From: Candidatus Anaerobiospirillum pullistercoris
GTDB taxonomy: Bacteria; Pseudomonadota; Gammaproteobacteria; Enterobacterales; Succinivibrionaceae
NCBI GenBank assembly: GCA_019114785.1
Contig: DXEV01000142.1
Span: 1 to 38,348, forward strand
Reading direction: 5' to 3'
Length of the DNA stretch: 38,348 nucleotides
Made by a program: the position numbers and the translations under genes. How positions within the stretch are numbered: position 1 is the first letter of the stretch; every line of letters starts with the position of its first letter. Of the stretch, positions 677-24,300 are shown piece by piece. The notes beneath the pieces are model-generated. The model searched no databases and was not told where the DNA came from. It saw only the letters and a list, made by a program, of their open reading frames with translations.

Positions 677-3418
677 TTAGCCGTTGTTTTCCATGCCGAT
701 CAGGTCAAAGTGCTTGGTACTCACGACCATGGTGAAGTCGTCCTTGGCAGGCTTACGACACTTGATCTCAATCACACGCGAGGACATGTTGTAATACCAA
801 CCGCTCTCGGTCTCATGGAAATCATCAGCCACCAGATAACGCGTTAACTCCTGACCATCGCAGCTGACAAAGAGAGCTCCCTTGGTCTTGCTCACTACCT
901 GCACCCTCAATTGCTCATAGGAATGCTCCAGAGATCCCGTCTTGTTAAAGCGGATCTCCATATGCTCTCCAGGGAGCACCTTAATATGGGTGTTAGCGTA
1001 GACGCCGTGCTCGAAATCCTTAGAGTGGCCATCATCCTCGTAGTAGTCAAACTCAAGGTTTTCCTGCGCATCTACTGTTGCCGTTGCAGCTACCAACAGC
1101 TGTAAGGTCTTGACCTTGTCGAAGACCAGACGCTTTAAGTCATCTGAGGCCACCACAATAGCGTTATCACGCAAGAACATCGGAATAGACGCAGCGATAA
1201 CTGGATATAAGATGGTCTGGCCGCCCTCGTAGACCTTAAAGTTATCATTAAGGTCATACCACTTATGGCCTGCAGGCAAGTAAATAGGACGCTCGGTCTG
1301 TCCCTTTTCTAGCACTGTAGCCACCAGTAGAGATGGGCCAAACATAAAGCTTAAGCTTTGATCCTCTAAGCAGCGCACATCATGAGGGAACTCCATGAAC
1401 AGAGGACGCCACACTGACAAGCCCTCAAGATGAGCCACACGCATTAAAGAGTAGAGATAGACCATGTAGTGATAACGCAGTGCGTAAGCAGCTTTGATCT
1501 CCTCTTGGTACTCTGGGTACATGAAAGGCTGCGTCACTGTGTTGTCGTTATTGGCAGAGTTCATGGTGAAGCGTGGTTGGAACACACCATTTTGCACCCA
1601 GCGCAAGAGCAGCTCAGCCTCAGGGGCTTCACCGGCAAAACCACCGATATCACAGCCCATATTAGCCACACCACTGATACCCATGCCCAAGATCGTGCCC
1701 ACATTGAACTTGAGGGTACGCCAATCAGTGAGGTTATCACCACCCCACACCTGTGCATAACGCTGGATACCGGTATAACCCGCACGGTTGATAATGTATG
1801 GACGCTCGTTAGGATAAACCGCAGCAATAGCTTTTCTTGCGGTATAGGCCATCATATTGGACTGAATAGCCTTGTATTCGTCCATGGTTCCGCCCTTGCC
1901 TTCAGCCGAGACCACAGCTTCGCGATCTTCCACACCGTCAAATTCGCAGTTATCGTTCCACACGGTCTTGGTGCCCATCTTCAGGATGTTTTCCTGCAAT
2001 AAATGAGACCAAGCCTCACGTCCCTGAGGATTAGTGAAGTCCACAAAGTAGCCAGGGCCACCCCACCAGCGTCCCACATAGTATTGCTGTGGATTAGTAA
2101 CAGCAGGATCAGTGCTAGCCTCATTGGCTGCCACTTTGTCCTCAGCAGGCACAGGATTTACCTTGGCTTGAGGGACTTTAACCAGAGCACCACGATCTAA
2201 GTAATACTGCTTGTAAGGATGCCCCATCAGCACACCAGGCTTCAAATTAGGGATCACATTGATGCCTTGGGCGTTTAAGGTAGCAAAGAACTCCTCTGGG
2301 TGAGGGAAGCGGATGTGATTCCAGTTAAAGGTGTAACGCAGCTTGTCCTTTTCACCAGCGGAATAGCCGCTAGCAAGCCAGAAATTGTCCACAGGAATAC
2401 CGCTATCACGCATCTTAGTGAGCACTTTGTAGATCTCACGATCACAATCGCGATCCAGCTCGGCGTAATACATGGTAGAAGCGGTAAAGCCCAATGATTG
2501 CAGCGTTGGCATGGCACTCTTACCGGTAAGATCGGTAAAGCGGCGGATCACATCCTTAAGCTGAGGGCCATTGATCAGGAAGAAATCGATATCACCGCCA
2601 TCAACTTGATAGAACGAATACGGTTCCCAATAGCCACTGCGCTCGTTACCCATATCAAAGATGGCATCATGGGAATTGTTATATAACAAGCCTACGTAAT
2701 GTCCCTGCTGTGCATTGACACGCACATAGAAAGGAATGTGCTTATACATGGACTCGCAGAACTCAGGATCGTGTCCAATGGCGTCACGTGGGCACAGGTG
2801 CATGTGACGACCTTTCTTATCGACATGGCCTGTCGTCTCACCAAAACCAAAGAAGTGATCATTGCGTGGATCAATGCGGTTGTAATGGGTCAAACGTCCT
2901 AAATGGTCACGATCATAGGCACGCTCAGGCAGATCAGCATAGACCTCACAGCCTGTAGCTTTGTCCACTAAGGAAAAAGACAGAGGATGCTTGTGAAGCA
3001 CCAGCTGTAAGGTGTCTGTACCTAAGCAAGTATGCTTCTCATCATCCACCTCAATCTGAGCCTCATAGGCTGGCAGACGAGTACGCTCAGCGGCCAAAAG
3101 CTCATCGAGCTCATCTTGCCATGCAGTCTGCACTAAGGCATAAGAGCGCTCTGGCATGTCTTGGCACCAGAGTTGATCTAAGCTCATCTGCTCGCGCTGC
3201 ACCCCAGCAGCCTCAAAATGCACGCGAATGCGCACTATATCAGTGGTAACAAACTGCACCTTGACACGAGCTTGAGGGGCCAGCACAAGGAAGCCACTCT
3301 CACCATTTTGTTGGTAGACACGCACCTGTTCTACATCACGAACAAACACGAAAAGATCCTTACCCACGCTGTGGGCTAAAACATGCGGAAGCTCTACACC
3401 CCAAGGCTTTAACGCCAC
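677..3418 (-). CDS. Glycoside hydrolase family 31 (alpha-glucosidase/alpha-xylosidase-like), cytoplasmic
   Basis: 913 aa; GH31-type motifs VWNDNCEFDG (nucleophile region), GGDN (acid/base region), FGFGE, GCDIGGF, QNGVFQPRF; no signal peptide; GTG start. Confidence 0.9.
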   Translation of the reverse strand: MALKPWGVELPHVLAHSVGKDLFVFVRDVEQVRVYQQNGESGFLVLAPQARVKVQFVTTDIVRIRVHFEAAGVQREQMSLDQLWCQDMPERSYALVQTAWQDELDELLAAERTRLPAYEAQIEVDDEKHTCLGTDTLQLVLHKHPLSFSLVDKATGCEVYADLPERAYDRDHLGRLTHYNRIDPRNDHFFGFGETTGHVDKKGRHMHLCPRDAIGHDPEFCESMYKHIPFYVRVNAQQGHYVGLLYNNSHDAIFDMGNERSGYWEPYSFYQVDGGDIDFFLINGPQLKDVIRRFTDLTGKSAMPTLQSLGFTASTMYYAELDRDCDREIYKVLTKMRDSGIPVDNFWLASGYSAGEKDKLRYTFNWNHIRFPHPEEFFATLNAQGINVIPNLKPGVLMGHPYKQYYLDRGALVKVPQAKVNPVPAEDKVAANEASTDPAVTNPQQYYVGRWWGGPGYFVDFTNPQGREAWSHLLQENILKMGTKTVWNDNCEFDGVEDREAVVSAEGKGGTMDEYKAIQSNMMAYTARKAIAAVYPNERPYIINRAGYTGIQRYAQVWGGDNLTDWRTLKFNVGTILGMGISGVANMGCDIGGFAGEAPEAELLLRWVQNGVFQPRFTMNSANNDNTVTQPFMYPEYQEEIKAAYALRYHYMVYLYSLMRVAHLEGLSVWRPLFMEFPHDVRCLEDQSLSFMFGPSLLVATVLEKGQTERPIYLPAGHKWYDLNDNFKVYEGGQTILYPVIAASIPMFLRDNAIVVASDDLKRLVFDKVKTLQLLVAATATVDAQENLEFDYYEDDGHSKDFEHGVYANTHIKVLPGEHMEIRFNKTGSLEHSYEQLRVQVVSKTKGALFVSCDGQELTRYLVADDFHETESGWYYNMSSRVIEIKCRKPAKDDFTMVVSTKHFDLIGMENNG

Positions 3419-3516
3419 CTTGGTTGCATCCTTACCATGACCAAGGAATCACAGGTACTGTGCTAAAACATAATGGACAGCAGTCATGGCTAGGAAGCAT
3501 TTCCGTTAGACAGAAA

Positions 3517-3577
3517 ACTAAAAAAGCCGGAACTAAGAGCTTCAGGCTATGCCTGCAAACACCTTAGCTCCGGCTTG
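3517..3577 (-). terminator. Rho-independent terminator downstream of dctM
   Basis: On the minus strand AAGCCGGAGCTAAGG...GCAGGCATAGCCTG...CTTAGTTCCGGCTTTTTTAG: long branched stem ending in a U-tract. Confidence 0.8.
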
Positions 3578-3702
3578 GTTGCAAGGATGATTGTCACAAT
3601 GTTGGAGGCCAGTGAAGATGCTGCCCTCCAACCGTATAGTTGGGGCAAGGAAGGCTAGATCCTTGGCCCTATGGAAAAGAACAAAAAAGCGAAAGAAAGC
3701 GA

Positions 3703-5004
3703 CTACATCAAGCCCATGGCCTCTGGGATCACCAATGAAATTGCAGGTACATAGGTTAAGATCAAGAGGATGGCAATCAACACTAAGAAGTAAGGTAAGA
3801 GCATAGCTGACACCTTTTCTAAGGACATCTTAGTGATACCGCAGCCCACAAACAGCACCGAGCCCACTGGAGGAGTCATCGAGCCAATGCACATGTTGAA
3901 GATTAAGACCACACCAAAGTGCACTGGATCCATGCCTAAAGAGACACAGATTGGCAGGAAGATTGGGGTGAAGATCAGAATAGCTGGGGTAATGTCCATG
4001 AACATGCCCACAATCAACAGAATCAGGTTGATGAGGAACAACAGGACATACTTGTTCTCAGAGATGGAGAGCAGACCGTTAGCGATAGCATCAGGAATAC
4101 CGGAGTAAGCCATCACCCAAGACATAGCCGAAGAAGACGAGATCAAGAACAAGATGATACCGCTGGTGCAAGCACTATCCACCAAGATCTTCATAAAGAC
4201 CTGCATATTGATGGCACGATAGATCACTGACAAGAATAAGCAGTACACCACGCACACTGCAGCACCTTCAGTTGCGGTAAAGATACCACCCACGATACCG
4301 CCAATCACGATGATGATTAAGAGGAAGCTTGGTAAGGCATCTAAGGTGATCTTAAGAGCAGTCTTTAATGGCACCACACCCGTGGTTGGGTACTTATGAG
4401 CACGAGCGTATAAGAAGGCCACAACCATCACACCTAAGCCCATTAAGATGCCAGGAATATAACCTGCCATAAACAGAGCCGAGATGGAGACACCGCCCAC
4501 CACCGTAGAGTACACGATGAAAGCAGAGGTTGGTGGGATCAGCAGACCAGTTGGAGCTGAAGCAATATTCACAGCCGTGGCAAAGGCCATGTTGTACTTC
4601 TCTTCCTTTTGGATTGGGGAAATACTACCGCCCATGGCCGAAGCTGCGGCTACAGCAGAGCCTGCCAGCGCACCAAAGAGCATATTGCCCAGCACATTAG
4701 CTTGTGCCAAAGAACCAGGAATGAAGCCGCAGAAAAGCTTAGCAAAGTTGATCATGCGACGGGCAATACCGCCATTGTTCATGATGTTACCTGCCAAGAT
4801 AAATAGAGGCACAGCTAAAAGCGAAAAGCTCTCCACGCCTGAATTCATTTTTTGCATTGTTATGAAAGAAACTTGATCCCAACTTAAGGTAGATAGTGCT
4901 GTGATCACCGAAGAGATCACGATACTCACACTAATAGGCACGCTCAACGCGAGCAGGAAAAAGAAGACGGCGAATAAGATCACCGTAGTCAGGGCAATAG
5001 ACAT
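3703..5004 (-). CDS. dctM: TRAP transporter large permease (DctM family)
   Basis: 433 aa, about 12 TM; GGSISPIQKEEKYN, PTGLLIPPTSAFIVYS, GMFMDITPAILIFTPIFLPI, MCIGSMTPPVG typical of DctM; start overlaps dctQ stop (TAATG). Confidence 0.93.
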   Translation of the reverse strand: MSIALTTVILFAVFFFLLALSVPISVSIVISSVITALSTLSWDQVSFITMQKMNSGVESFSLLAVPLFILAGNIMNNGGIARRMINFAKLFCGFIPGSLAQANVLGNMLFGALAGSAVAAASAMGGSISPIQKEEKYNMAFATAVNIASAPTGLLIPPTSAFIVYSTVVGGVSISALFMAGYIPGILMGLGVMVVAFLYARAHKYPTTGVVPLKTALKITLDALPSFLLIIIVIGGIVGGIFTATEGAAVCVVYCLFLSVIYRAINMQVFMKILVDSACTSGIILFLISSSSAMSWVMAYSGIPDAIANGLLSISENKYVLLFLINLILLIVGMFMDITPAILIFTPIFLPICVSLGMDPVHFGVVLIFNMCIGSMTPPVGSVLFVGCGITKMSLEKVSAMLLPYFLVLIAILLILTYVPAISLVIPEAMGLM

Positions 5005-5618
5005 TATTGATCCTCCTTGCGCTCGTCTTTGGTGACGGTAGCTTGGTCAGCATTAGCTGCATCAGTAGCAACCGCCTGCGAAGGCTCAGACTCGGCCACC
5101 ACCACGGCTGGGGCTGCATTGGCAGCGTTAGGGCTCAGGCTAACTCCAGTGAAGTCCTCGTATAAGTTGATGATCTGAGCAATGATGATAAAGACACCAG
5201 AAATTGGAGCCATGCTATACACCAGCGAACGTGGAATACCTAACAAAGCCGAATATTCCATCGAAGCAGAAATAGCCAGCTTGGTACCACCTACCACGAG
5301 GATGGAGAAAGCAAAAATCAAGATAATGGCATCAACAATGATGGTGATAGTCTTACGGGTTGGGGCATCAAAGCGATCACGCACAAAGGTCAAAGCCATA
5401 TGCTCACGCGAAGAGAAAGCGTAAGCAGCACCAATGAAGCCTGTCCAGATCAAGAAATCACGCACCAGCTCTTCGGTAAACGATGCTGGATCGTTTAAGC
5501 AGTAGCGCGTAAACACCTGCCATAACACCAAGAGAGTCATGACGACTAACAAAATGGTGCAGAGACGAGCTAACACGTAAGTCATGCCCGCCTTGAGTTT
5601 CACTAAAAAGTCATACAT
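5004..5618 (-). CDS. dctQ: TRAP transporter small permease (DctQ family)
   Basis: 204 aa, 4 TM; LVLWQVFTRYCLNDPASFTEELVRDFLIWTGFIGAAYAF typical of DctQ; Ala-rich charged C-terminal tail; lies between dctM and dctP. Confidence 0.9.
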   Translation of the reverse strand: MYDFLVKLKAGMTYVLARLCTILLVVMTLLVLWQVFTRYCLNDPASFTEELVRDFLIWTGFIGAAYAFSSREHMALTFVRDRFDAPTRKTITIIVDAIILIFAFSILVVGGTKLAISASMEYSALLGIPRSLVYSMAPISGVFIIIAQIINLYEDFTGVSLSPNAANAAPAVVVAESEPSQAVATDAANADQATVTKDERKEDQ

Positions 5619-5629
5619 CTTGAGGCCTC

Positions 5630-6712
5630 CTACTCAGCGACAGTCACTTCTTGAATAGCTTTAGCCTCAGCTTCAGCCTCAGCAGTCTTGCCTGCACGCA
5701 CGTTAGAGATCAGGGCTAAAAGGTGCTTTACACCAGGGTATTCAGCCGAGTACTTATCCAACATACCGCTGGTGGCTTTACGGAAAGCGTCCTTATCCAC
5801 GTCATAGACAAACTGAACGCCCATCTCAGTGCTAGCTTCAGCAATAGCATCTTCCACTGCCTGATCCCACATGTCTTGGTGAGCAACAGTAGAATGACGA
5901 GCTGCTTCTTCCATGATGATGCGATCCTCTGGAGTCAAATCGTCCCAAACCTTGGAAGAAATAACTAAAGCATCAGGGATCATGGCGTGCTGATCCATCG
6001 AGTAGACCTTGCAAATCTCTCCATGCTTACCTAAAGTCAAAGCGGTCTCATTGTTCTCGGTACCGTCAATCACACCGGTTTGCAGCGAAGTAAACACGTC
6101 ACCGTATGCCATGGCCACAGGAGTACCGCCCATAACGTCGATCATTTCCGTCTGGGACTTCATGTCCTGCACACGGATTTTGAGGCCTTTGAGATCAGCT
6201 GGAGTACGGATGGCACGATCTACGGTGTAGAAAGAGCGAGCACCAGAGGTGTAATAAGTCAGCGTCACAAATCCTTTGTCGTAGCTAGTCTTAAAGAAGT
6301 CATACATTGGATCACTGTCCATAATGAAGTAGAAATCCTCAGTATTATTGAAGATATATGGCAGACCAAAGGCGTGATAGGCATCCTGATAGGTAGCCAG
6401 CATTGGCGAGGAAACCTTGGTCATGGAGATCACGCCTGCCATCACCTGCTCCATCTGCTCAAGCTCAGAGCCCAGCTGGCCGTTGGCAAAGATCTTAAAT
6501 TGGATACGACCGTTAGTGCGCTCCATAACCTCATCGGCAAATTGCTTAATAGCAATGTGCACGGTGTGAGTTTCACTCAAGCTATGCGCCAGTGTCATCA
6601 CATAAGGATTGTCTGGCGTAGCCTCTTTACTGTTTGGTGCGCTTTGCCCGCCACAGGAGCAAAGGCTAACCGCCATTGCAGCCGCGAGCATTGCTTTCAC
6701 AAAAACTCTCAT
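5630..6712 (-). CDS. dctP: TRAP transporter substrate-binding protein (DctP family), putative lipoprotein
   Basis: N-terminus MRVFVKAMLAAAMAVSLCSCGG (signal/lipobox); LAHSLSETHTVHIAIKQFADEVMERTNGRIQFKIFANGQLGSELEQMEQV and GLKIRVQDMKSQTEMIDVMGGTPVAMAYGDVFTSLQTGVIDGTENN typical of DctP. Start trimmed from the ORF track (6763) to 6712. Confidence 0.92.
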   Translation of the reverse strand: MRVFVKAMLAAAMAVSLCSCGGQSAPNSKEATPDNPYVMTLAHSLSETHTVHIAIKQFADEVMERTNGRIQFKIFANGQLGSELEQMEQVMAGVISMTKVSSPMLATYQDAYHAFGLPYIFNNTEDFYFIMDSDPMYDFFKTSYDKGFVTLTYYTSGARSFYTVDRAIRTPADLKGLKIRVQDMKSQTEMIDVMGGTPVAMAYGDVFTSLQTGVIDGTENNETALTLGKHGEICKVYSMDQHAMIPDALVISSKVWDDLTPEDRIIMEEAARHSTVAHQDMWDQAVEDAIAEASTEMGVQFVYDVDKDAFRKATSGMLDKYSAEYPGVKHLLALISNVRAGKTAEAEAEAKAIQEVTVAE

Positions 6713-6945
6713 AGAAAAAACATCCCTCTCAAAACATCTTAAAAATAAGCTCCAGAGCAGCAAACTGTCGTCCTCATTACAGCGCCCGCCCCATTAGCTC
6801 CTGACGTGAGTGAGTTGTACTCAAACCGATATGCTTGGCTCTACTTGCCAGCAGCATGAAGAACCAAACACCCCTACAGCTATCGGCTCACGTTCCCTCT
6901 CAGCAACACATGGGGCTCTATCTAAGATGTAGTTCACAGCACAAC

Positions 6946-7026
6946 AAAGGCACCTAAAGGCACCTAAAGTCACCTTAAGGATACCTAAGGTCTCCTTGTG
7001 TCACTTTGTGTCACCTTGTGCTGCAC
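6946..7026. repeat. Degenerate tandem repeat, about 8 units of about 10 bp
   Basis: AAAGGCACCT AAAGGCACCT AAAGTCACCT TAAGGATACCT AAGGTCTCCT TGTGTCACTT TGTGTCACCT TGTGCTGCAC between dctP and the second GH31 gene. Confidence 0.8.
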
Positions 7027-7157
7027 CCCACACCTGCTAAATAGATCTCTGGAAGCCTCAAAAAGAAATAGTCTCGGTACAGCTGTCGCTACTGCCACAA
7101 CAATAGCAGCAGTAGCCACAGTCTCGGCCACAGACGTAGTCACGACAACAGCAACAG

Positions 7158-9665
7158 CTACATGCCGATCATGTCAAATGGCTCAAAAGAAATGACCACT
7201 TCATGATCACGCTTAATAGCTGGGTACTTGATCTCCACACACTTGCGAGTCTGCGAGTAGTACCAAGCACAAGGGGCTTGCTCAAACTCAGCACGATGCA
7301 GTAAGTGCTCGATCTTGATGCCATCAACCATGACATAGAATGGGCACTTCTCATGGTGGATCACGTACAACTTAACCTGCTCTACGGCACTCTCGTAAGA
7401 ACCACTGTAGTGGAAGCTAAACTTGGTGGTAGTGCCAGCCTGCATCTTGATGTCAGTGGTTAAGAACTTGCCCTGCTCAAAGTCATTGCTGACGCCATCA
7501 TCCTCATACAAGGTAAAGCTACCGTCTTTATCTGGAGCAGCGATGATCTCAAGATGCTTAACCTGATCACGTTGTAAGCAACGTAATTTGTCTTCAGCAC
7601 CAGCCATAACCACGATCTGACCTGAGCGGATAAACATTGGGATGGAAGCCATGTCTACAGGTAACTGTACAGTGGTACCACCCTCATAGCGCTCAAAGGT
7701 ATTAAAGTCGTAGAAGGTCTCACCCTGAGGGAAATAAACCTCACGTACCTTTTGGCCTTTTTCTAAGACATTAGCCACCATTAAGCCCGAGCCCAGCATA
7801 AAGTTTTCGGCCTCGTCGTAGACCTTTGGATCTTGCTGATACTCCAACAGCATTGGGCTGAAGTATGGCAAGCCAGTGACATGAGCACGGTACATGAGCG
7901 AATACATGTAAGGGGAGAGACGATAACGCAGGTTGATGGCATCATGGATTAAATGCTTGCTCTGCGAGTACATCCAAGGCTCAGTCACCGAGTTATCGAC
8001 ATTGACAGAGTGGATGGAAAAACGTGGCTGGAAGATACCGTTTTGCACCCAACGTACAAAGAGCTCTTCGGTTGGTGCTGGGCCATAGAAGCCACCGATA
8101 TCCGAACCTTGGTTAGCCACACCGGATAAGGACATGCCTAACATGGTGCCGATGTTGTACTTTAAGGCCTCATAGCAAGTCAGGTTATCGCCAGACCAAG
8201 TTTGGGCATAACGCTGAATACCAGCATGACCAGAGCGGCAAACCACAAATGGACGACGGTTTGGATAGAACTCACGTAAGGCTTCCACTGTGATCTGGCA
8301 CATGACGCTGCTCATAACGGCCTTCATCTCGAGCACAGTCTTATCTAAACCTTCAACCGAGCAACGGCAGTCCTTATTAACGATACTGTCGTATTCGCAG
8401 TTATCGTTCCACACGCTGTAGCAGCCGTAAGCAAAGAGGTGATCTTTGAGCTGTTGCTTCCAATAATCACGGGCATTCTGCTGCGTAAAGTCCACAAAAT
8501 GGCCCTTACCACCCCACCATGTACCAACAGCAGGGGTATCTGCATGCTCTTCGCGCACAAAGATCTGATGTGCTTTCATGTCCTCAAGAGCTGGGTGTAC
8601 GCACAGAATACCAGGCTTGACGTTAGGCGAAACCACAATGCCTAATTCATCCATAGCCTTGAAGTAAGCAGCTGGATCTGGGAAGCGCTCATCATTCCAA
8701 GTAAAGACACAGCGCTTTAAGCCCTCAGCAGTAGAGGCGGTGCAGTAGCCAGAAGATAACTGGAAGCCATCAATGCCGATATCCTCGCTCTTGGCAGTAT
8801 TGATAAACTTACAAATGGCTTGGTCACAGTCCTTTTCCAGCTCTGCGTAATACATCGAGGAGCCTAAATAGCCTAAAGCAGCCTTAGGCAGCATGATGCT
8901 CTTGCCGGTTAAATCGGTATAGCGCTCAACTACTTCCTTGACCGATGGGCCCTTGATGAAGAAAAGATCGATATCGCCCTTGCTGACACGCACAGTGGAG
9001 TGACGGTGCCAGTAATTGCTCTTGCGGCGGCCCATATCAAAGTCACACTCACTGGAGGTGTGATAGAAATAGCCTGAAGCCACCTTGGTTTCGTGGTTCA
9101 GCTTAATGAAGAAAGGAATGTGTTTGTAGAGGGAGTCAGTGTTCTGTGGATCATAGCCCATAGCATCGGTTGGGCACATGGTCATGAAAGCTTGGGCTTT
9201 GTTAAAGTTACCACCCTTCTCACCAAAGCCATAGAAACCGTCAGTAGCTTCGATCTCCGAGGTGTGAACACGACGTAAATTGCTGTCCTCTTGCAGTGCC
9301 AGATCCACACAGTCCTTGTGCAGCACTACACCATTGAGATCAGTGATCTCAATTTGATAAGGGCTCTTGTGCACGATCACCTTTAAGGCCGAAGAGGTCA
9401 AAACAAAGCAGTCTGGCTGCTCTTCTAAAGTGCTAGGGGCCACTTCCACACGACGGCGATAGGACTTCAGCATAGGGTCAGTCACGCTATCCCAAGCGGT
9501 CATCACCAGCGAGTAGGAATACTCCTGAAAAGTGCCATCAAAACCAGCACGGATACGAACAATTTCCGGAGTCAGGAAATAGATCCGCACATCACAAGCA
9601 TCAGTGCCAACCACATAGAAATTGTCTTGAGCCTTGCAGCTCAGAGCTTGAGTGCAAACGCGCAT
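7158..9665 (-). CDS. Glycoside hydrolase family 31 (second paralog), cytoplasmic
   Basis: Motifs SVWNDNCEYDS, WSGDN, GSDIGGFYGPAP, QNGIFQPRFSIHS and FYGFGEKGGNF parallel to the 677-3418 gene; probable start MRVCTQ at 9665 (ORF track 9701). Confidence 0.9.
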   Translation of the reverse strand: MRVCTQALSCKAQDNFYVVGTDACDVRIYFLTPEIVRIRAGFDGTFQEYSYSLVMTAWDSVTDPMLKSYRRRVEVAPSTLEEQPDCFVLTSSALKVIVHKSPYQIEITDLNGVVLHKDCVDLALQEDSNLRRVHTSEIEATDGFYGFGEKGGNFNKAQAFMTMCPTDAMGYDPQNTDSLYKHIPFFIKLNHETKVASGYFYHTSSECDFDMGRRKSNYWHRHSTVRVSKGDIDLFFIKGPSVKEVVERYTDLTGKSIMLPKAALGYLGSSMYYAELEKDCDQAICKFINTAKSEDIGIDGFQLSSGYCTASTAEGLKRCVFTWNDERFPDPAAYFKAMDELGIVVSPNVKPGILCVHPALEDMKAHQIFVREEHADTPAVGTWWGGKGHFVDFTQQNARDYWKQQLKDHLFAYGCYSVWNDNCEYDSIVNKDCRCSVEGLDKTVLEMKAVMSSVMCQITVEALREFYPNRRPFVVCRSGHAGIQRYAQTWSGDNLTCYEALKYNIGTMLGMSLSGVANQGSDIGGFYGPAPTEELFVRWVQNGIFQPRFSIHSVNVDNSVTEPWMYSQSKHLIHDAINLRYRLSPYMYSLMYRAHVTGLPYFSPMLLEYQQDPKVYDEAENFMLGSGLMVANVLEKGQKVREVYFPQGETFYDFNTFERYEGGTTVQLPVDMASIPMFIRSGQIVVMAGAEDKLRCLQRDQVKHLEIIAAPDKDGSFTLYEDDGVSNDFEQGKFLTTDIKMQAGTTTKFSFHYSGSYESAVEQVKLYVIHHEKCPFYVMVDGIKIEHLLHRAEFEQAPCAWYYSQTRKCVEIKYPAIKRDHEVVISFEPFDMIGM

Positions 9666-9781
9666 GCCCCTATTTCTCCCGAACAAACTAAAGAACAGCA
9701 ATGAAAACGGGTAATGGGTAGCTCACAACAAAGCCAGAGTCCACAGCCTAAGGCAACTGCTGCCATAAAGCTCGCTGATTC

Positions 9782-9810
9782 CCATACATACCTGTTTTCT
9801 ACTTGTATGG
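9782..9810. promoter_or_regulatory. Candidate operator: inverted repeat upstream of the GH31/TRAP genes
   Basis: CCATACA-N15-TGTATGG within the divergent GH31/araC intergenic region. Confidence 0.35.
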
Positions 9811-10134
9811 TAGAGAGTTTGCGCGGGAAAAACTCAACAAAAATTGACAGGATTTAAGCGAAATTCAACATTTCTTGCGCAATTTACGAAAGTAAGAACT
9901 ACATCACAAAAAGCAAAAAGCGCCACGTAAAACGGCGTAAACACTGTATTTCCTGCTTTAAAATGCCCTCAAAATACCCCTACAGTTGGCTAACAACAAA
10001 GCAGATCTGTCTAGCAAGATAGTATGAGTTTAAGACCTGTGGCTACGGCTGCGGCTACTGTTACCCAAACACCTTTGCTTTCCACCACCGCGCCTCCCTA
10101 TCCTCTATCTGATTCAGATCTGCTGGCCCTATAG

Positions 10135-10180
10135 CAAGCCTCAAGCTTGCTTGCAAACAAGCCAAACGCTTGCTTGCATC
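10135..10180. promoter_or_regulatory. Candidate AraC-type operator: two adjacent 23-bp direct repeats
   Basis: CAAGCCTCAAGCTTGCTTGCAAA / CAAGCCAAACGCTTGCTTGCATC immediately upstream of the AraC-family gene. Confidence 0.5.
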
Positions 10181-10223
10181 CACCCTTAATACTCAACCCC
10201 ACTATAAGTAATGGAGAGCTGCC

Positions 10224-11066
10224 ATGATCGATAATGCCGCTATCTTCATGCAAAGCGGTCACAATATCGCTTCAGAGCGCATCAGTAGCGTTAACGACAA
10301 CACCATGCGCAGCCACTTCCACTCCTACTTTGAGCTCTTCTACCTCGAAAAAGGCAAACGTGCAGTGGTGGCAGGAGAGCGCTCCTATCTTTTAGGGCCT
10401 CATGAGTTCATCATTTTCCCGCCCTACACAATGCACCACTCTTTTTCCGAGCCAGATGTCGCTTTTGCGCGCATTGTGCTGTACTTTGCCCCTGACACCA
10501 TCCCAGAGGCACTGGAATTAAAACTGCGACAAGAGACCAAACCTCACGCTATTGCTTCAACCCAGCAACAGCAAGACTTTTACAACCAGCTTTGCGCCCT
10601 CATGGCAGAACAGGATCCACAAAACAAAGAAGATTTTCATGATGTGGCACTACACAGTCGCTTAAACCTGCTATTGATCTCAGCCTTACGGCACGAGAGC
10701 AAAGATGTTGCTCCGCAAAGCGAACCCAAGATCGCTAAGATCGTGCAGTATGTGCACAACCACTATTTCCAAGAGCTCAGCCTCGATGACTTGGCCGAAA
10801 AGTTCTTCATTAACAAATTCTCGCTGTGCCGCGAATTTAAGCGTTTCACCATGTGCAGCTTTGTGGAGTATCTCAACAAGATCCGCGTGCTCCACGCCCA
10901 GCGCCTATTTGTCGAAAGCGACAAAAGCATTACCCAGATCGCGATTGATGTTGGCTTTGGTAGTCTCACCCACTTTGAGCGTGTCTTTGCTCAGCACACC
11001 CATCAGACCCCAAAGAAGATGTGCCAGCAAATGCGACAGCTCCGCGATAAATCACCGTCCATCTAA
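10224..11066 (+). CDS. AraC-family transcriptional regulator with N-terminal cupin
   Basis: 280 aa; cupin-like HFHSYFELFYLEKGKRAVVAGERSYLLGPHEFIIFPPYTMHHS; C-terminal double HTH LSLDDLAEKFFINKFSLCREFKRFTMCSFVEYLNKIRVLHAQRLF...ITQIAIDVGFGSLTHFERVFAQHTHQTPKKM; RBS GGAGAG. Confidence 0.93.
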   Translation: MIDNAAIFMQSGHNIASERISSVNDNTMRSHFHSYFELFYLEKGKRAVVAGERSYLLGPHEFIIFPPYTMHHSFSEPDVAFARIVLYFAPDTIPEALELKLRQETKPHAIASTQQQQDFYNQLCALMAEQDPQNKEDFHDVALHSRLNLLLISALRHESKDVAPQSEPKIAKIVQYVHNHYFQELSLDDLAEKFFINKFSLCREFKRFTMCSFVEYLNKIRVLHAQRLFVESDKSITQIAIDVGFGSLTHFERVFAQHTHQTPKKMCQQMRQLRDKSPSI

Positions 11067-14257: not shown

Positions 14258-14421
14258 CTGCCCACTGACCAAGTCAGCACTGTCACAGCAGACAGGAGCT
14301 TAAGATGTCAGACACGCCCTTGTTTTTGCTCTTGCTGTCTTAGCTCCGGATGTCTGGCAGAATCGACCAAGATTTCTGCCTCAACCCTTTTAGTTTCGCA
14401 ACAACAAGCATAGGAGGAAAT

Positions 14422-15456
14422 ATGGCCTTAAGACCTTTAGCTCGCCTACTCAGCCGCTTAATTTTAGTCACAGGGCTTTGCAGCACAGCAACATACGTGG
14501 CTGCAAGTGAGCCTACAGCTCCAACCGCTGCCCAAAAGGAGCTCATGGGCTATACCGACGGTGCCCAGATCATGACTGTGGCAGAGCGTGTCACTCCTAT
14601 CGATGCGCGTAGCAATCTGATCTACGCCCAAGTTGCCTCTCCTCGTCAGCACGACCTGCTGCATATGCACCTACTCATCCCACGCACAGAAAGCCCAAAG
14701 CCAGCTATTATCTTCTTCCCTGGTGGTGGCTTCACTAGCTCCGACTATGATCGTTACACCGACATGCGCTATGCTCTGGCCAGAGCAGGTTTTGTGGTCG
14801 CCTCAGCAGAATATCGCGTTGTCCCTCACATGTTCCCAAGCCTTGTCGAAGATGGCAAAGCCGCTGTGCGTTATCTGCGTGCTCACGCTCAAGACTTTGG
14901 CATTGATCCTGACAAAATCGGCGTTTTAGGTGACTCTGCTGGTGGCTATATGTCCCAAATCGTAGCTACCACCAATGGGGAAAAGGAATTTGACCGTGGG
15001 GATTTCCTCGATGTTTCCTCTGATGTGCAAGCCGCCGTGTCTATTTACGGAATCTCAGATCTGCTCTCCATTGGCGAAGGCTATAGCGACGAGATTGTAG
15101 CTGTGCATAAGTCGCCAGCCGTGACCGAAGCCCTGTTGCTCCACGGCCCAGCTTTCAACACTTTTGCCGGTGCCTCCATCGACTCTGATCTAGAAAAGGC
15201 CAAAAAGGCCAGCCCAATCAACCATGTCGACAAAAATGATCCTCCAATGCTGCTCTTACACGGTAGTGCAGACACCTTAGTCAGTCCTTGGCAAAGTGCC
15301 CACATGCACGAAGCCCAAAAGAAAGCAGGTGTTGACAGCTCCTACATCTTAATTGAGGGAGCAGACCATGGCGGCATAATGTGGTATCAAGAGCCAGTCT
15401 TCCAGCAAGTGATCTCTTTCTTCGAGCAAAAACTTGGTAAGCCAGCTCAAAAATAA
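14422..15456 (+). CDS. Secreted alpha/beta-hydrolase / acetyl-xylan-esterase-like protein
   Basis: Start at 14422 with TAGGAGGAAAT RBS; signal peptide MALRPLARLLSRLILVTGLCSTATYVAASE; IIFFPGGGF oxyanion-hole motif, GVLGDSAGGYMS nucleophile elbow (GDSAGG), catalytic D/H near LLHGSADTLVS and GADHGG. Confidence 0.88.
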   Translation: MALRPLARLLSRLILVTGLCSTATYVAASEPTAPTAAQKELMGYTDGAQIMTVAERVTPIDARSNLIYAQVASPRQHDLLHMHLLIPRTESPKPAIIFFPGGGFTSSDYDRYTDMRYALARAGFVVASAEYRVVPHMFPSLVEDGKAAVRYLRAHAQDFGIDPDKIGVLGDSAGGYMSQIVATTNGEKEFDRGDFLDVSSDVQAAVSIYGISDLLSIGEGYSDEIVAVHKSPAVTEALLLHGPAFNTFAGASIDSDLEKAKKASPINHVDKNDPPMLLLHGSADTLVSPWQSAHMHEAQKKAGVDSSYILIEGADHGGIMWYQEPVFQQVISFFEQKLGKPAQK

Positions 15457-18944: not shown

Positions 18945-21137
18945 ATGTTAGAGCTTGTTTCTGAAGATCGGCCTCGGTTGGTTGGTTTGGGTGCAACTGT
19001 CTTTCCCGATGGCGTGTTTTTTAGTATCTGGGCCCCTGATGCTCAAGAAATGTGGGTACACCTGTACACCTTAAAAGAGGTCAAGCTCGGAGCTTTTGCC
19101 CTTAATAAGAAAAAAGGTGGTGTCTGGTACGGCTTTATCAAAGGTCTCAGTGCTGGTGATTGCTATGCTCTTGAGGCTAAAGGTGAGTATGCCCCTGAAA
19201 AAGGATTTTTCTTTCAAGAAGGCCGTTTCCTCGTCGATCCGTATGCCAAAGCTTTAAACAAGCCTTTTGTGTACAACGAAGATCTGTACAAAAATCACAG
19301 CGAGGAATTTATCCCTAAGGCCATTATCCAAGGCCCAAGCGACTTCAATTGGGAAGGCACAACTAAGATCTTCCGTGATCGCGCTGATGTGATCATCTAC
19401 GAAGCGCATGTGCGTGGTATGACCAAGCTCAAAGAAGACGTTCCTCCAGCTCTACGTGGTACCTATCTGGGCATGTGTCACCCGAGTGTTATTGAGCACC
19501 TCAAATATCTCGGCATTACCACCGTCCAGCTGCTGCCAGTTGCTGCTTCGATGTCAGAGCCTTTCCTTGTAGAGCGCCATCTACGTAATTACTGGGGCTA
19601 TAACCCTGTGTGCTTTATGGCACCAAATCCTGATTACGCCACAGATCCAGCCAAAGCAGTGGATGAGTTTAAAACCATGGTTAAAACTTTCCACCAAAAT
19701 GGTATTGCCGTGATCTTAGACGTGGTCTACAACCACACCGCCGAAGCAGGTTTAGAAGGCCCAATCTTAAGCTATCGCGGTCTGGATGCCCGCTCCTATT
19801 ACGCAGTAGAGCGTAAAGCTGATGGCTCACCTGATTATCTGCGCTACATCAATGCCACTGGCTGTGGTAATTCCTTCAACGCTGATTCCTTGATCTCCAT
19901 GCGTCTAATCATGGATAGCTTGAAGTACTGGTTAAGTGAGATGCAAGTCGACGGCTTCCGCTTTGATTTGGCGGTTACCGTCTGCCGTGAGAGCCATGGC
20001 AAAGACATGTTCCATGCCTTTGACCGCAATAGCGGCTTCTTCAAAGCTTGCTTCGCTAACGAATTGACACAAAAAGCCCTGATGATTGCTGAGCCTTGGG
20101 ACATAGGCGTTAATGGCTATCAAGTCGGTAAATTCCCACGCGGCTGGTCAGAGCAAAACGACAAATTCCGTGACTGCGTGCGTCGCTTCTGGCGTGGTGA
20201 TAAGGGCATGTTAGGCGAGCTTGCCACCCGTCTGCTAGGCTCACGTGATGTCTTCCAAAAAGGCGATCGCTCCATCAATGCCTCGGTCAATTACATCACC
20301 TATCACGATGGCTTTACCTTAGAGGATCTGGTGTCCTACGAGCGCAAGCACAATGAGCTCAACCTCGATAACAATAACGATGGCACCACAGAAAACTTCT
20401 CCAGCAATAGCGGTGTCGAAGGTCAAACCAAGGATCATGAGATCAGCAAAAAGCGCATGCAAATGAAGCGCAATCTCATGGGCACCTTAATCATTGCCCA
20501 AGGTATTCCGCACATCTTAGGTGGTGATGAGCTGTCCCGTACCCAGCTGGGCAATAATAACGCCTACTGTCAGGATAACGACTTAAGCTACTACCACTGG
20601 AATATCTCACAAGAGCAGCGCTACTTCCTTGAGTACACCAAAAAGCTGATCTCACTATTACAGTCGAGCCGTGTGCTGCGCGAGATCAACCTCTTTGATG
20701 ACTACTTCTACAAGTTTGAGGACGATTACATTGCTCGCTGGCGTAAGTGCAATGGTACGCTGATGCAAGATCAGGATTGGAACAGCGGCCAATATAACCA
20801 CTTCTTGCTGTACATTGGTGATCGTAACTTTAAAGGTGAGCGCTGGTGCGTCATGATCAACAATGAGGATCGTGACCTCATGTTCCGTATGCCAAGTATC
20901 TTCCATAATCGTTTCTGGCATGCGGTGTTAGACAGCTCCGAAGAAGACGGCACACCACGCCGTTTCTCCAATGAAGCTGGTTTGGAGAGCATGTGTGCCG
21001 CGCACTCCATGAAGATCTTGCGTATGGACATTGTGGGCGGTGTCAGCGAGCTGACGAGCGAAAAGAATATGGACAAGTTAGCCCACTCCCACATTCTCAC
21101 CCGATACACGCAAAGCACTCACGGCTACGACCTCTAA
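18945..21137 (+). CDS. glgX: Glycogen debranching enzyme GlgX (GH13, isoamylase type)
   Basis: 730 aa; YEAHVRGMTK, GITTVQLLPVAA, YWGYNPVCFMAPNPDYA, VILDVVYNHTAEAG, VDGFRFDLAVTV, LIAEPWDIG-like, YITYHDGFTLEDLVSY, GIPHILGGDELSRTQLGNNNAYCQDN. Confidence 0.95.
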   Translation: MLELVSEDRPRLVGLGATVFPDGVFFSIWAPDAQEMWVHLYTLKEVKLGAFALNKKKGGVWYGFIKGLSAGDCYALEAKGEYAPEKGFFFQEGRFLVDPYAKALNKPFVYNEDLYKNHSEEFIPKAIIQGPSDFNWEGTTKIFRDRADVIIYEAHVRGMTKLKEDVPPALRGTYLGMCHPSVIEHLKYLGITTVQLLPVAASMSEPFLVERHLRNYWGYNPVCFMAPNPDYATDPAKAVDEFKTMVKTFHQNGIAVILDVVYNHTAEAGLEGPILSYRGLDARSYYAVERKADGSPDYLRYINATGCGNSFNADSLISMRLIMDSLKYWLSEMQVDGFRFDLAVTVCRESHGKDMFHAFDRNSGFFKACFANELTQKALMIAEPWDIGVNGYQVGKFPRGWSEQNDKFRDCVRRFWRGDKGMLGELATRLLGSRDVFQKGDRSINASVNYITYHDGFTLEDLVSYERKHNELNLDNNNDGTTENFSSNSGVEGQTKDHEISKKRMQMKRNLMGTLIIAQGIPHILGGDELSRTQLGNNNAYCQDNDLSYYHWNISQEQRYFLEYTKKLISLLQSSRVLREINLFDDYFYKFEDDYIARWRKCNGTLMQDQDWNSGQYNHFLLYIGDRNFKGERWCVMINNEDRDLMFRMPSIFHNRFWHAVLDSSEEDGTPRRFSNEAGLESMCAAHSMKILRMDIVGGVSELTSEKNMDKLAHSHILTRYTQSTHGYDL

Positions 21138-21301
21138 GCCATTGCGCCACCGCGCAGCTGCTCTACTGTGCAGCCGCGCAGCCACAGCGGCATCGCCGCT
21201 GGCTCTGTAGAAAGTTCACATATCCCCGCGCATTGCGTCGCTGTATAATGCAGCGGCCGCGCGGGTTTTTTGTTTTCTTTTTCTTTCAGGAGATTTTTCC
21301 T

Positions 21302-24300
21302 ATGGCTACGTTTTCTTCTTTTGCTGACCTCAAGGATCTGCGTCAATCACTGCGCCAACAAGAGGCCGAGCAGGCTCAAGCTAAGGCCGATGCCATCATT
21401 GTGGATGATGAGCAGGCTAAGACCAACCCACTCAAGCAAAAGGCTGCACGTTTAGCTGCTTTTACCAATCAAGCTTTAGAGCAAGAAAAGGAGCGCGAAC
21501 AACGTAACGCCGCTGCCGATGCTGCTGGCAATCCAGCTCGTGGTCACAACGCTGCCAGCCAAGAAAAGCAAGCGCCACCCCGAGGGCGCGAACGCTCTGG
21601 GCGCGATCGTGAGCACATGCGTAACCAGCATTCCCAAGGCAATCGTGGCCCTCGTATGGCACAAAACGCCGAGCAAAGCCCTAAAGAGCGTCGTGCGCAG
21701 CAAGAGCGTGCAGGCGAGCGCTTAGATCGTGCTCTGCAGCGTCTGCAACGCCACAGCAACTCTACTTCAGAGGCGAAAAAGGGCTCACCATCGGAACGCC
21801 AAGGTCAGCAGACTCAGCCAAAGCCAAAGCAACAGCCAAAGCAAGCACAGCGCGCCTCTCGTGCGACCGCCAAAGGCCAAAAGCAACGTCAGGGCTCAAG
21901 CCGTCCGGTTTTAGTGGGTAAGTTCTTTGATGTAGAGGCCTTAAAGGCAGTGCGCGCAGTGCAGGATGAGGTGCGCTATCAAGATCGTCGTCTGCTTTAC
22001 CGTGCTCTAGAGGAGTTAGATCAGCTGATCTCCAAGCAGGTCGAAAGCCTGATGCGTGAAGCACAAAAGCCTGCTGGTACTAACGAATCCAAGACCTCGG
22101 CCACTACAGCGCCCGCCCCTGCTGCTACACCTGCAGATGCTGCTGCTACAGCAGCTACTGCAGAGCCAGCAACCGCTAAAGCCCCAAGTGCCCAAGAGCT
22201 TTTACCTCTGGCCTTAGAGGCTGTAGAGGTGGTTGCCAAGCGTGAGCAGCTAAAACAACAAGCCGCTGACGCCGCCGCCGCTTACAAGCTGCGCTGTGAA
22301 AATCTGCCAAAGCTGGAATATCCTGAGCAACTGCCTGTTAGCCAGCGTAAAGATGAGATCGTCAAGGCCATTTCTGAGCATCAGGTGGTGATCATTGCCG
22401 GTGAAACTGGCTCTGGTAAGACTACTCAGATTCCAAAGATGTGCCTCGAGGCTGGTTTAGGTCGTAAAGGCCTGATTGGTCACACCCAGCCACGTCGTAT
22501 TGCCGCTCGTGCTGTAGCTGCCCGTATTGCAAAGGAAATGCACGAGGAGTTAGGTCACAGCGTCGCCTATAAGGTGCGTTTTACTGACATCAGCTCAGAT
22601 CAGGCCTACATCAAGCTCATGACCGACGGTATCTTACTCTCGGAGCTCTCTGGTGATCGCTTGCTGCTGAATTACGATGTCATCATTATCGATGAGGCTC
22701 ACGAGCGCTCGCTCAATATCGACTTCTTATTGGGCTACTTAAAGGGCTTACTTTCCAAGCGTCCTGAGCTGAAGCTGATCATTACCTCGGCTACCATTGA
22801 TGTGGAGCGCTTTGCCCAGCACTTTAATAATGCTCCTATTATTGAAGTTTCGGGTCGTACCTATCCAGTGGAAGTGGTGTACATGCCACTGATGGAAGAC
22901 GGTAAAGGCGTCTATGTCGAAGGACATGATGGTAAGGGTCACTATGAGACCTTAAAGGGCAAACGCATCTCTGATCCAGTTGAGCATGAGAGCGCTAAAG
23001 AGCGCGCTGCCGATCCTGAGCTGAACGAAGGCCCAGGTGCATGGCGCGACTATCAACAAGGCCCTGCTGGCTCACTGTCTAGTTTACGTGCTGCCTCTGC
23101 CCCGCATGCTCCTGCAGCTGTCAGCGCCGCTAAGAGCAGCAAAAAGGCAGTAGCCGATGATGATCGCGATCTTGCTGACGTCATGGACTTACGCCAAGGC
23201 ATTTTGCAGGCTTTTGAGTACTTACAAGCACGTGGCCGTGGTGACACTCTGGTGTTCTTACCAGGTGAGCGCGACATCTTAGAAATTGCTCAATTCCTGC
23301 GTAAGGCTCATTTGCGTGATACGGAGATCATTCCGCTCTATGCCCGTTTGGCTACAGCCGAGCAAAACAAGATCTTCACTAGCCATACCGGTGTGCGCAT
23401 CGTGCTGGCCACTAACGTGGCAGAAACCTCGCTGACCGTGCCAGGTATTCGCTATGTGATTGATCCTGGTCTGGCCCGTATCTCACGTTATAGCGCTCGT
23501 ACTAAAGTGCAGCGTTTACCAATTGAGCCAATCTCACAGGCCAGTGCCAACCAGCGTAAAGGCCGTTGCGGTCGTGTCAGTAATGGTATCTGTGTGCGTC
23601 TGTACTCTAAGGAGGATTTTACTAATCGTCCAGAGTTCACCGATCCAGAGATCCTGCGTACTAACCTCGCCTCGGTATTACTGCAAATGGCCTCACTGCG
23701 TTTAGGTCGGATCGAAAACTTTCCATTTATCGATGCTCCGTCTCCACGCCAGATCAGTGACGGTTTACGTCTGCTGCACGAACTGGGAGCCACCACTGAG
23801 CGTGCTGAGATCATCAGTGTAGGTGGTGAAGCTGTGTCGCAGTCACGTGATCGCGCCGATCGCGCTGAGCACGGTGACAACTTGCAGCTGACTCCAATAG
23901 GCCGCATGCTCTCTCGTCTGCCTTGTGATCCACGCTTGGGCCGCATGATCATTGAAGCTGACAAGTACCACTCCTTAAGCGAGGTGCTGGTCATTGTGTC
24001 CTTACTGGCGGTCATGGATCCACGTGAGTATCCTTTAGACAAAAAGGAAGCTGCTACCCAAAGCCATGCCCGTTTTAACGATGAGAAGTCAGACTTTTGC
24101 TCAATCTTAAAGCTCTATGACTACATCAAAGAGCTGCAAAGCACACTGTCTAATTCCGCTATGCGTCGCCGATTAAAGCAAGAGTTCTTATCGTTCTTAC
24201 GCGTGCGTGAATGGCTGGATGTGCACCGCCAATTACGTGTCAGTGCGCAGACCATGGGCTTAAAGTGCAACGAGGAGCCATCGGACTATGAGAGTATCCA

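Follow-up and report, generated by a model that had tools for sequence, protein, structure and literature searches.

The window examined here is a 38,348-nt contig of Candidatus Anaerobiospirillum pullistercoris (DXEV01000142.1; C119 of a 3.63-Mb draft genome), in which two glycoside hydrolase family 31 (GH31) genes flank a tripartite ATP-independent periplasmic (TRAP) transporter. Transcription of this unit runs along the minus strand in the order GH31-B, dctP, dctQ, dctM, terminator, GH31-A, with an AraC gene divergent from it (Table 1). This arrangement, first described from the letters of the window alone (hereafter, the sequence-only reading), is confirmed: gene order and strands agree with open reading frame (ORF) calls and with Pfam matches, all above cut-offs (DctM, 8e-114; DctQ, 2e-31; DctP, 1e-74; the divergent gene, AraC family), and the DctP, DctQ and DctM families lie in one operon-like run. 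The true starts of GH31-B and dctP likely lie slightly inside those listed, at 9665 and 6712. On inspection by eye neither GH31 protein shows a signal peptide, as had been claimed, and the terminator reported between GH31-A and dctM was recovered by folding, as a 76-nt stretch with a T-run after the hairpin; a simple hairpin scan gave no match in this gap because the loop is long. No sigma-70-like consensus scored in the intergenic region between GH31-B and the AraC gene. Synteny, which the sequence-only reading had proposed as a check, is kept in most genomes of the genus, and the arrangement is therefore not chance. Some genomes of the genus have no GH31-A, and one (G002) gave no match. In another the unit has decayed, with GH31-A fragmented and neither GH31-B nor dctPQ found at the site (G006:C18, L036).

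Both outer genes encode full GH31 enzymes (PF01055, E 1.5e-71 and 5.9e-79; Pfam also matches the N- and C-terminal GH31 domains) that are 42% identical to each other. An AlphaFold2 model of GH31-B (pLDDT, the predicted local distance difference test, 94.7; pTM, the predicted template modelling score, 0.94) shows a whole-length GH31 fold, for which the best match in the PDB is 6jr6 (FjDex31A). Fold and catalytic Asp pair are thus common to the GH31 alpha-glucosidases and dextranase (FjDex31A, glucosidase II, MalA), but identity to this best solved fold is only 23%, and the pocket differs as described below. Neither protein reaches the cut-off of the NCBIfam equivalogs of MalA, YicI or YihQ type; scores of 285 and 311 bits against a cut-off of 800 (MalA model) and of 182 and 224 against 606 (YicI model) led us to reject MalA and YicI identity.

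We then surveyed pocket residues by aligning 117 GH31 proteins of the clade around the window's two enzymes with 37 comparison GH31 proteins, using the residue numbers of the GH31-B model (residue 2 is Met). The two catalytic aspartates are universal. Around them, the acidic or Gln residue found at position 305 in other GH31 proteins is lost throughout the clade, and Arg319, Lys351 and Arg549 are invariant in it (Table 1). Asn349 and Asn423 are likewise clade-invariant (117/117) and rare or absent in the 37 others. Placed by alignment, these changes appear to remove negative charge and add positive charge near the sugar site, and we infer that the -1 subsite of the clade has been rebuilt for a negatively charged glycone. 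To our knowledge, alpha-hexuronidase activity is not known in GH31. The reaction proposed here resembles that of the alpha-glucuronidases of GH67, GH115 and GH4, release of a uronic acid from an alpha-glycoside, though these families are unrelated.

Table 1. Features of the GH31-TRAP locus, in window coordinates; residue counts compare the 117 clade members with the 37 other GH31 proteins.
Feature	Position	Strand	Basis
GH31-A, second paralogue (A-type), cytoplasmic	677..3418	-	Pfam, tree, residues; start codon uncertain
Intrinsic terminator-like hairpin and T-run, dctM/GH31-A gap	3516..3576	-	Minimum free energy -35.3 kcal/mol, z -5.3
dctM, TRAP large permease	3703..5004	-	Pfam and TIGR00786
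dctQ, TRAP small permease	5004..5618	-	Pfam; weak likeness to YiaM
dctP, lipoprotein-type TRAP substrate-binding protein, hexuronate cluster	5630..6712	-	Pfam, contact residues
GH31-B, candidate alpha-hexuronidase (B-type), cytoplasmic	7158..9665	-	Pfam, AlphaFold2 model, fold match, tree
GH31-B Arg549	8022..8024	-	R in 117/117 clade, 0/37 others
GH31-B Asp494, acid/base (GDN)	8187..8189	-	D in 117/117 clade, 37/37 others; codon checked
GH31-B Asp422, nucleophile (WNDNCE)	8403..8405	-	D in 117/117 clade, 37/37 others; codon checked
GH31-B Lys351, candidate anion-binding	8616..8618	-	K in 117/117 clade, 1/37 others
GH31-B Arg319, candidate anion-binding	8712..8714	-	R in 117/117 clade; absent among residues tabulated for other GH31
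GH31-B Ser305-Ser306	8751..8756	-	Position 305: S/A/G in clade, D/E/Q in 37/37 others
Divergent intergenic region, presumed AraC-controlled promoter of the GH31-B/TRAP unit	9666..10223	.	Position between divergent genes
AraC-family regulator (AraC_binding and HTH_18)	10224..11066	+	Pfam

A scan of GTDB genomes returned many relatives of these enzymes, at 43-61% identity, in Lachnospiraceae, Oscillospiraceae, Actinomycetota, Spirochaetota, Synergistota and others. Clade members adjoin TRAP genes in Bacillota, Actinomycetota, Spirochaetota, Synergistota and Alphaproteobacteria, and hexuronate/galactonate-type carriers of the major facilitator superfamily (MFS) in Enterobacterales. The usual layouts are a divergent AraC gene with GH31-B, the substrate-binding protein (SBP), DctQ and DctM, or SBP, DctQ, DctM, GH31-B and GH31-A. 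The pairing of GH31 with TRAP genes, which the sequence-only reading did not recognise as standard, is thus no oddity, recurring as it does in several phyla, although in the open-access material that our searches reached no description of such a system was found. Among the carriers of the module are gut bacteria, including a Faecalibacterium prausnitzii strain, Enterocloster, Oscillibacter and Lachnospiraceae. Records from E. coli, E. albertii and Klebsiella, some of them plasmid-borne (L043, L047, plasmid H5-H10), combine a LacI gene, a hexuronate/galactonate-type MFS carrier and a clade GH31.

The tree of the clade resolves two paralogue types with good support, type A with 21 rows and type B with 71. 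Bacillota have both, as does the window's family, and the A type is accompanied by the B type at all but three loci. Trp303, Ala305 and Asn553 occur in all 21 A-type rows, where the others almost always have Gln/His, Ser and His. Because the types differ at these three pocket positions, GH31-A and GH31-B enzymes probably differ in the substrate or linkage that they attack. For both window proteins, the nearest relatives in the tree outside their own family are from Bacillota, which suggests horizontal exchange, in one direction or the other.

To see what accompanies these enzymes, we counted genes within 6 kb of clade GH31 at 99 loci. Glucuronate/galacturonate catabolic genes occur at 22 of them, and an anion-type carrier at 65 (TRAP at 48, hexuronate/galactonate-type MFS at 13, glycoside-pentoside-hexuronide (GPH) family at 4); a related AraC gene, frequently divergent from GH31-B, is found at 36/99. 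As a control we took all GH31 genes in 20 of the same clade-bearing genomes, replacing an earlier control (E. coli YicI, 199 genomes) that gave 3 matches and was dropped. Beside the 33 non-clade genes there were no uronate genes (0/33) and TRAP genes at only two, both YihQ-like; a 34th gene in the set proved to be a clade member, adjoining TRAP, reductase and UxaC genes.

The operons themselves take several forms. In Ruegeria the order is GntR, GH2 (beta-glucuronidase-like), SBP, DctQ, DctM, GH31, UxuB-like, UxaC, UxuA; Nitratireductor has a close variant with GH2, TRAP, a fructuronate-reductase-like gene, UxaC and UxuA, and Roseinatronobacter a similar one that lacks the neighbouring reductase and UxaC genes. 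The MFS-GH31 pair of Pantoea adjoins uxuR-uxaC-uxuB-uxuA, a gene set resembled by that of another genome of the order Enterobacterales (L136). Bombilactobacillus has the order reductase, UxuA, UxaC, GPH carrier, GH31, and in Dermabacter UxaC and a reductase are divergent from GH31-TRAP. Closer to the window, in a genome of the same genus (G009) the unit is bracketed by genes for a tagaturonate reductase (UxaB, scoring above cut-off) and a UxaA/GarD-family dehydratase, and in one of the same family (G042) UxaA-like and UxaB genes lie near GH31-A.

The host genome itself encodes the downstream pathway: UxaC, UxuA together with a reductase resembling UxuB, and the pair UxaB and UxaA. No GH67 or GH115 alpha-glucuronidase was found in it, and both window GH31 proteins match GH31 models only, not those of GH67 or GH115. 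Clade GH31 genes are present in 12 genomes of the family, 11 of which have UxaC (Fisher p 6e-4, kinship ignored); the sole exception is G006, whose unit is the decayed one.

The binding protein points the same way. DctP has a lipoprotein-type leader (MRVFVKAMLAAAMAVSLCSC), and its nearest solved relatives are Apre_1383 (PDB 4n91) and other members of the hexuronate group, whose ligands are presumed here except for those of Apre_1383 and Bpro_3107. These two ligands, like the contact residues considered below (STM3169 numbering), are given in PMC7660916, according to which Gln36 and Glu74 hydrogen-bond D-glucuronate. Window DctP keeps the residues typical of hexuronate SBPs, Arg150, Arg170, Asn210 and Asp237, and so by alignment has the carboxylate-binding residues that the sequence-only reading had suggested looking for; at the two positions expected for a binder of free D-glucuronate it has Leu (for Gln36) and Gly (for Glu74). 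Compared with the D-glucuronate/D-galacturonate TRAP systems (STM3169; Apre_1383, 4N91; PMC7660916), the window transporter therefore shares SBP cluster, operon type and these four residues, but differs at Gln36 and Glu74, is paired with GH31, and has UxaC encoded elsewhere.

The change at position 36 follows GH31 linkage. SBPs linked to GH31 have Leu/Met there in 39/50 cases and Gln in 3/50, against Gln in 18/25 and Leu in 4/25 for unlinked relatives (Fisher 2e-9, kinship ignored). The host provides a within-genome control in a second TRAP set, an SBP-DctQ-DctM-UxaC operon (G000:C136, L205, 2437-7929) that keeps Gln36 and presumably serves free hexuronates. On the simplest reading, GH31-linked DctP would still hold the uronate by its carboxylate, while a polar contact that reaches the remainder of a free sugar would be gone, an arrangement fitting a uronate that is glycosylated.

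Together, these findings lead us to propose, with moderate confidence, that the locus serves to take up and cleave an alpha-linked hexuronic-acid glycoside. Lipoprotein DctP would capture the intact alpha-hexuronoside via its carboxylate, and the DctQM permease would import it with a cation. The cytoplasmic GH31 enzymes would then hydrolyse the alpha bond by the retaining two-Asp mechanism, in a -1 subsite adapted to an anionic glycone, and the hexuronate released would pass through UxaC and on into either the glucuronate branch (UxuB/UxuA) or the galacturonate branch (UxaB/UxaA), all encoded elsewhere in the genome. AraC presumably turns the unit on. GH31-B would be the core enzyme, and GH31-A, behind the terminator, probably serves a second linkage or epimer. 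The core of the sequence-only reading, that an acidic alpha-glycoside is taken up and then split in the cytoplasm, is thus supported by four lines of evidence: the uronate-catabolism neighbours, anion carriers of different superfamilies, a changed DctP pocket that keeps its clamp, and the charge inversion of the GH31 pocket. Of its three example substrates, only a uronate conjugate survives.

As to which uronoside, we favour glucuronides for the clade overall, and in the window's family galacturonides are equally possible; the candidates are alpha-glucuronosyl-xylosides, alpha-galacturonides and alpha-glucuronosyl-glycerol. The last is pointed to by glycerol genes adjoining a clade GH31 in Caballeronia, with glpK near only 2/99 loci. 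Esterases of two families, PF00756 and PF20434 (BD-FAE), recur at 10 and 7 loci (L057, L061, L064, L072, L086, L116, L124 and L127 among them) and hint at an acylated substrate. In the window, a BD-FAE-family esterase gene (14350-15456, plus strand; 151 bits) lies a few genes past AraC and belongs to the same Pfam family as one of the esterases recurring near this GH31 in Bacillota.

Several points weigh against the proposed import of alpha-hexuronosides. The pocket residues were located by alignment, not from a liganded structure, and at about 75% of the loci no gene of uronate catabolism lies within 6 kb, though some of them end at contig edges. Shared ancestry among the SBPs means that their residue counts cannot be treated as independent. 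Of the two replaced positions only Gln36 discriminates: Glu74 is missing from both host DctPs, the UxaC-linked one included, as well as from many SBPs not linked to GH31, and is therefore less informative. Finally, a Pseudovibrio locus (L195, in the genome of L112) has a TRAP SBP of the Leu36 type beside UxaA, UxaB/UxuB and UxaC, although the 15 kb inspected there contain no GH31 gene.

The uronate could instead be the aglycone, such that the TRAP system imports a neutral alpha-glycosyl-uronate (glucosyl, galactosyl or xylosyl) and GH31 removes the neutral sugar. Classical GH31 activities do concern neutral glycones, and because a uronate would still be released, the uronate-gene association and the DctP clamp fit equally well. 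We nonetheless consider this arrangement unlikely: loss of the acidic/Gln residue and the invariant Arg/Lys in every clade member are what an anionic glycone would lead one to expect, and GH2 beta-glucuronidase-like neighbours at 7 loci suggest that the uronic acid is at the non-reducing end. It is more doubtful still that DctPQM takes up free hexuronates while the GH31 enzymes are mere passengers whose substrates, neutral alpha-glycosides, enter by a different route. DctP does group with binders of monosaccharide uronates, but across several phyla the same GH31 clade is paired with carriers of TRAP, MFS and GPH type, the host already owns a Gln36-type TRAP with UxaC, and GH31-linked DctPs differ at a ligand-contact residue.

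Other anionic alpha-glycosides fare worse. TRAP systems carry organic acids and the carboxylate arginine of DctP is kept, as glucosylglycerate or a different organic-acid glycoside would require, but such a substrate would leave both the UxaC/UxuA/UxuB neighbours and the uronate contacts Arg150, Asn210 and Asp237 unexplained; nothing points to the glycerate of the glycosyl-glycerate example offered by the sequence-only reading, and we give this class of substrate very little probability. Least probable of all is uptake of a sulfoquinovoside (sulfoquinovosyl-glycerol) with GH31 sulfoquinovosidases (SQases), a second of its examples. We take the SQase pocket motif to be Gln262, Gln288, Arg301, Trp304 and Tyr508; at these positions the alignment shows Y, S, L (or Arg319, as the alignment is ambiguous), C (or F) and F, leaving Gln262, Gln288, Trp304 and Tyr508 not conserved. 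The window proteins score 119 and 139 bits in the YihQ-type model (PRK10426; cut-off 553). On motif and model score we reject SQase identity; the neighbours of the clade are uronate genes instead. The attraction of the idea is that SQases (YihQ, SftG) belong to GH31 too and serve dedicated catabolic modules in which they cleave an imported, anionic alpha-glycoside (PMC11968277), and that YihQ-like GH31 genes adjoin TRAP genes in two sampled genomes; the window enzymes differ from these in their pocket and in lacking the motif, and the genes that adjoin their clade are for uronate catabolism, not sulfoglycolysis.

Glucuronoxylan side chains, pectin and uronosyl glycolipids all contain alpha-linked uronic acids. 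If the proposal is correct, GH31, with a cytoplasmic alpha-hexuronidase, would join the few families known to release them, routine alpha-glucosidase/xylosidase annotation of clade members would need correction, and TRAP transporters would appear to import intact uronic-acid glycosides, not free acids alone. We regard as evenly balanced the broader proposal that a GH31 subfamily with alpha-hexuronidase activity and a re-tuned hexuronate TRAP (or MFS/GPH) carrier form a horizontally shared system for intact-uronoside import, with two paralogues for two uronoside types, in gut, rumen and environmental bacteria. Since common gut bacteria carry the module, its substrate would bear on the use of fibre or host glycans.

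Two further observations concern other genes. The YihQ-like GH31 proteins mentioned above (L229 and L242, in the genomes of L129 and L112) are 49% and 56% identical to YihQ/YicI-type references and lie beside a TRAP permease and SBP; that of L242 has an SQase-like pocket, making a TRAP route for sulfoquinovosides possible. In the window, on the plus strand at 18945-26476, a 730-aa GH13-like ORF (18945-21137) overlaps a 1827-aa helicase with DUF3418 (20993-26476) by 145 bases, and the true start of the helicase is probably further inside.

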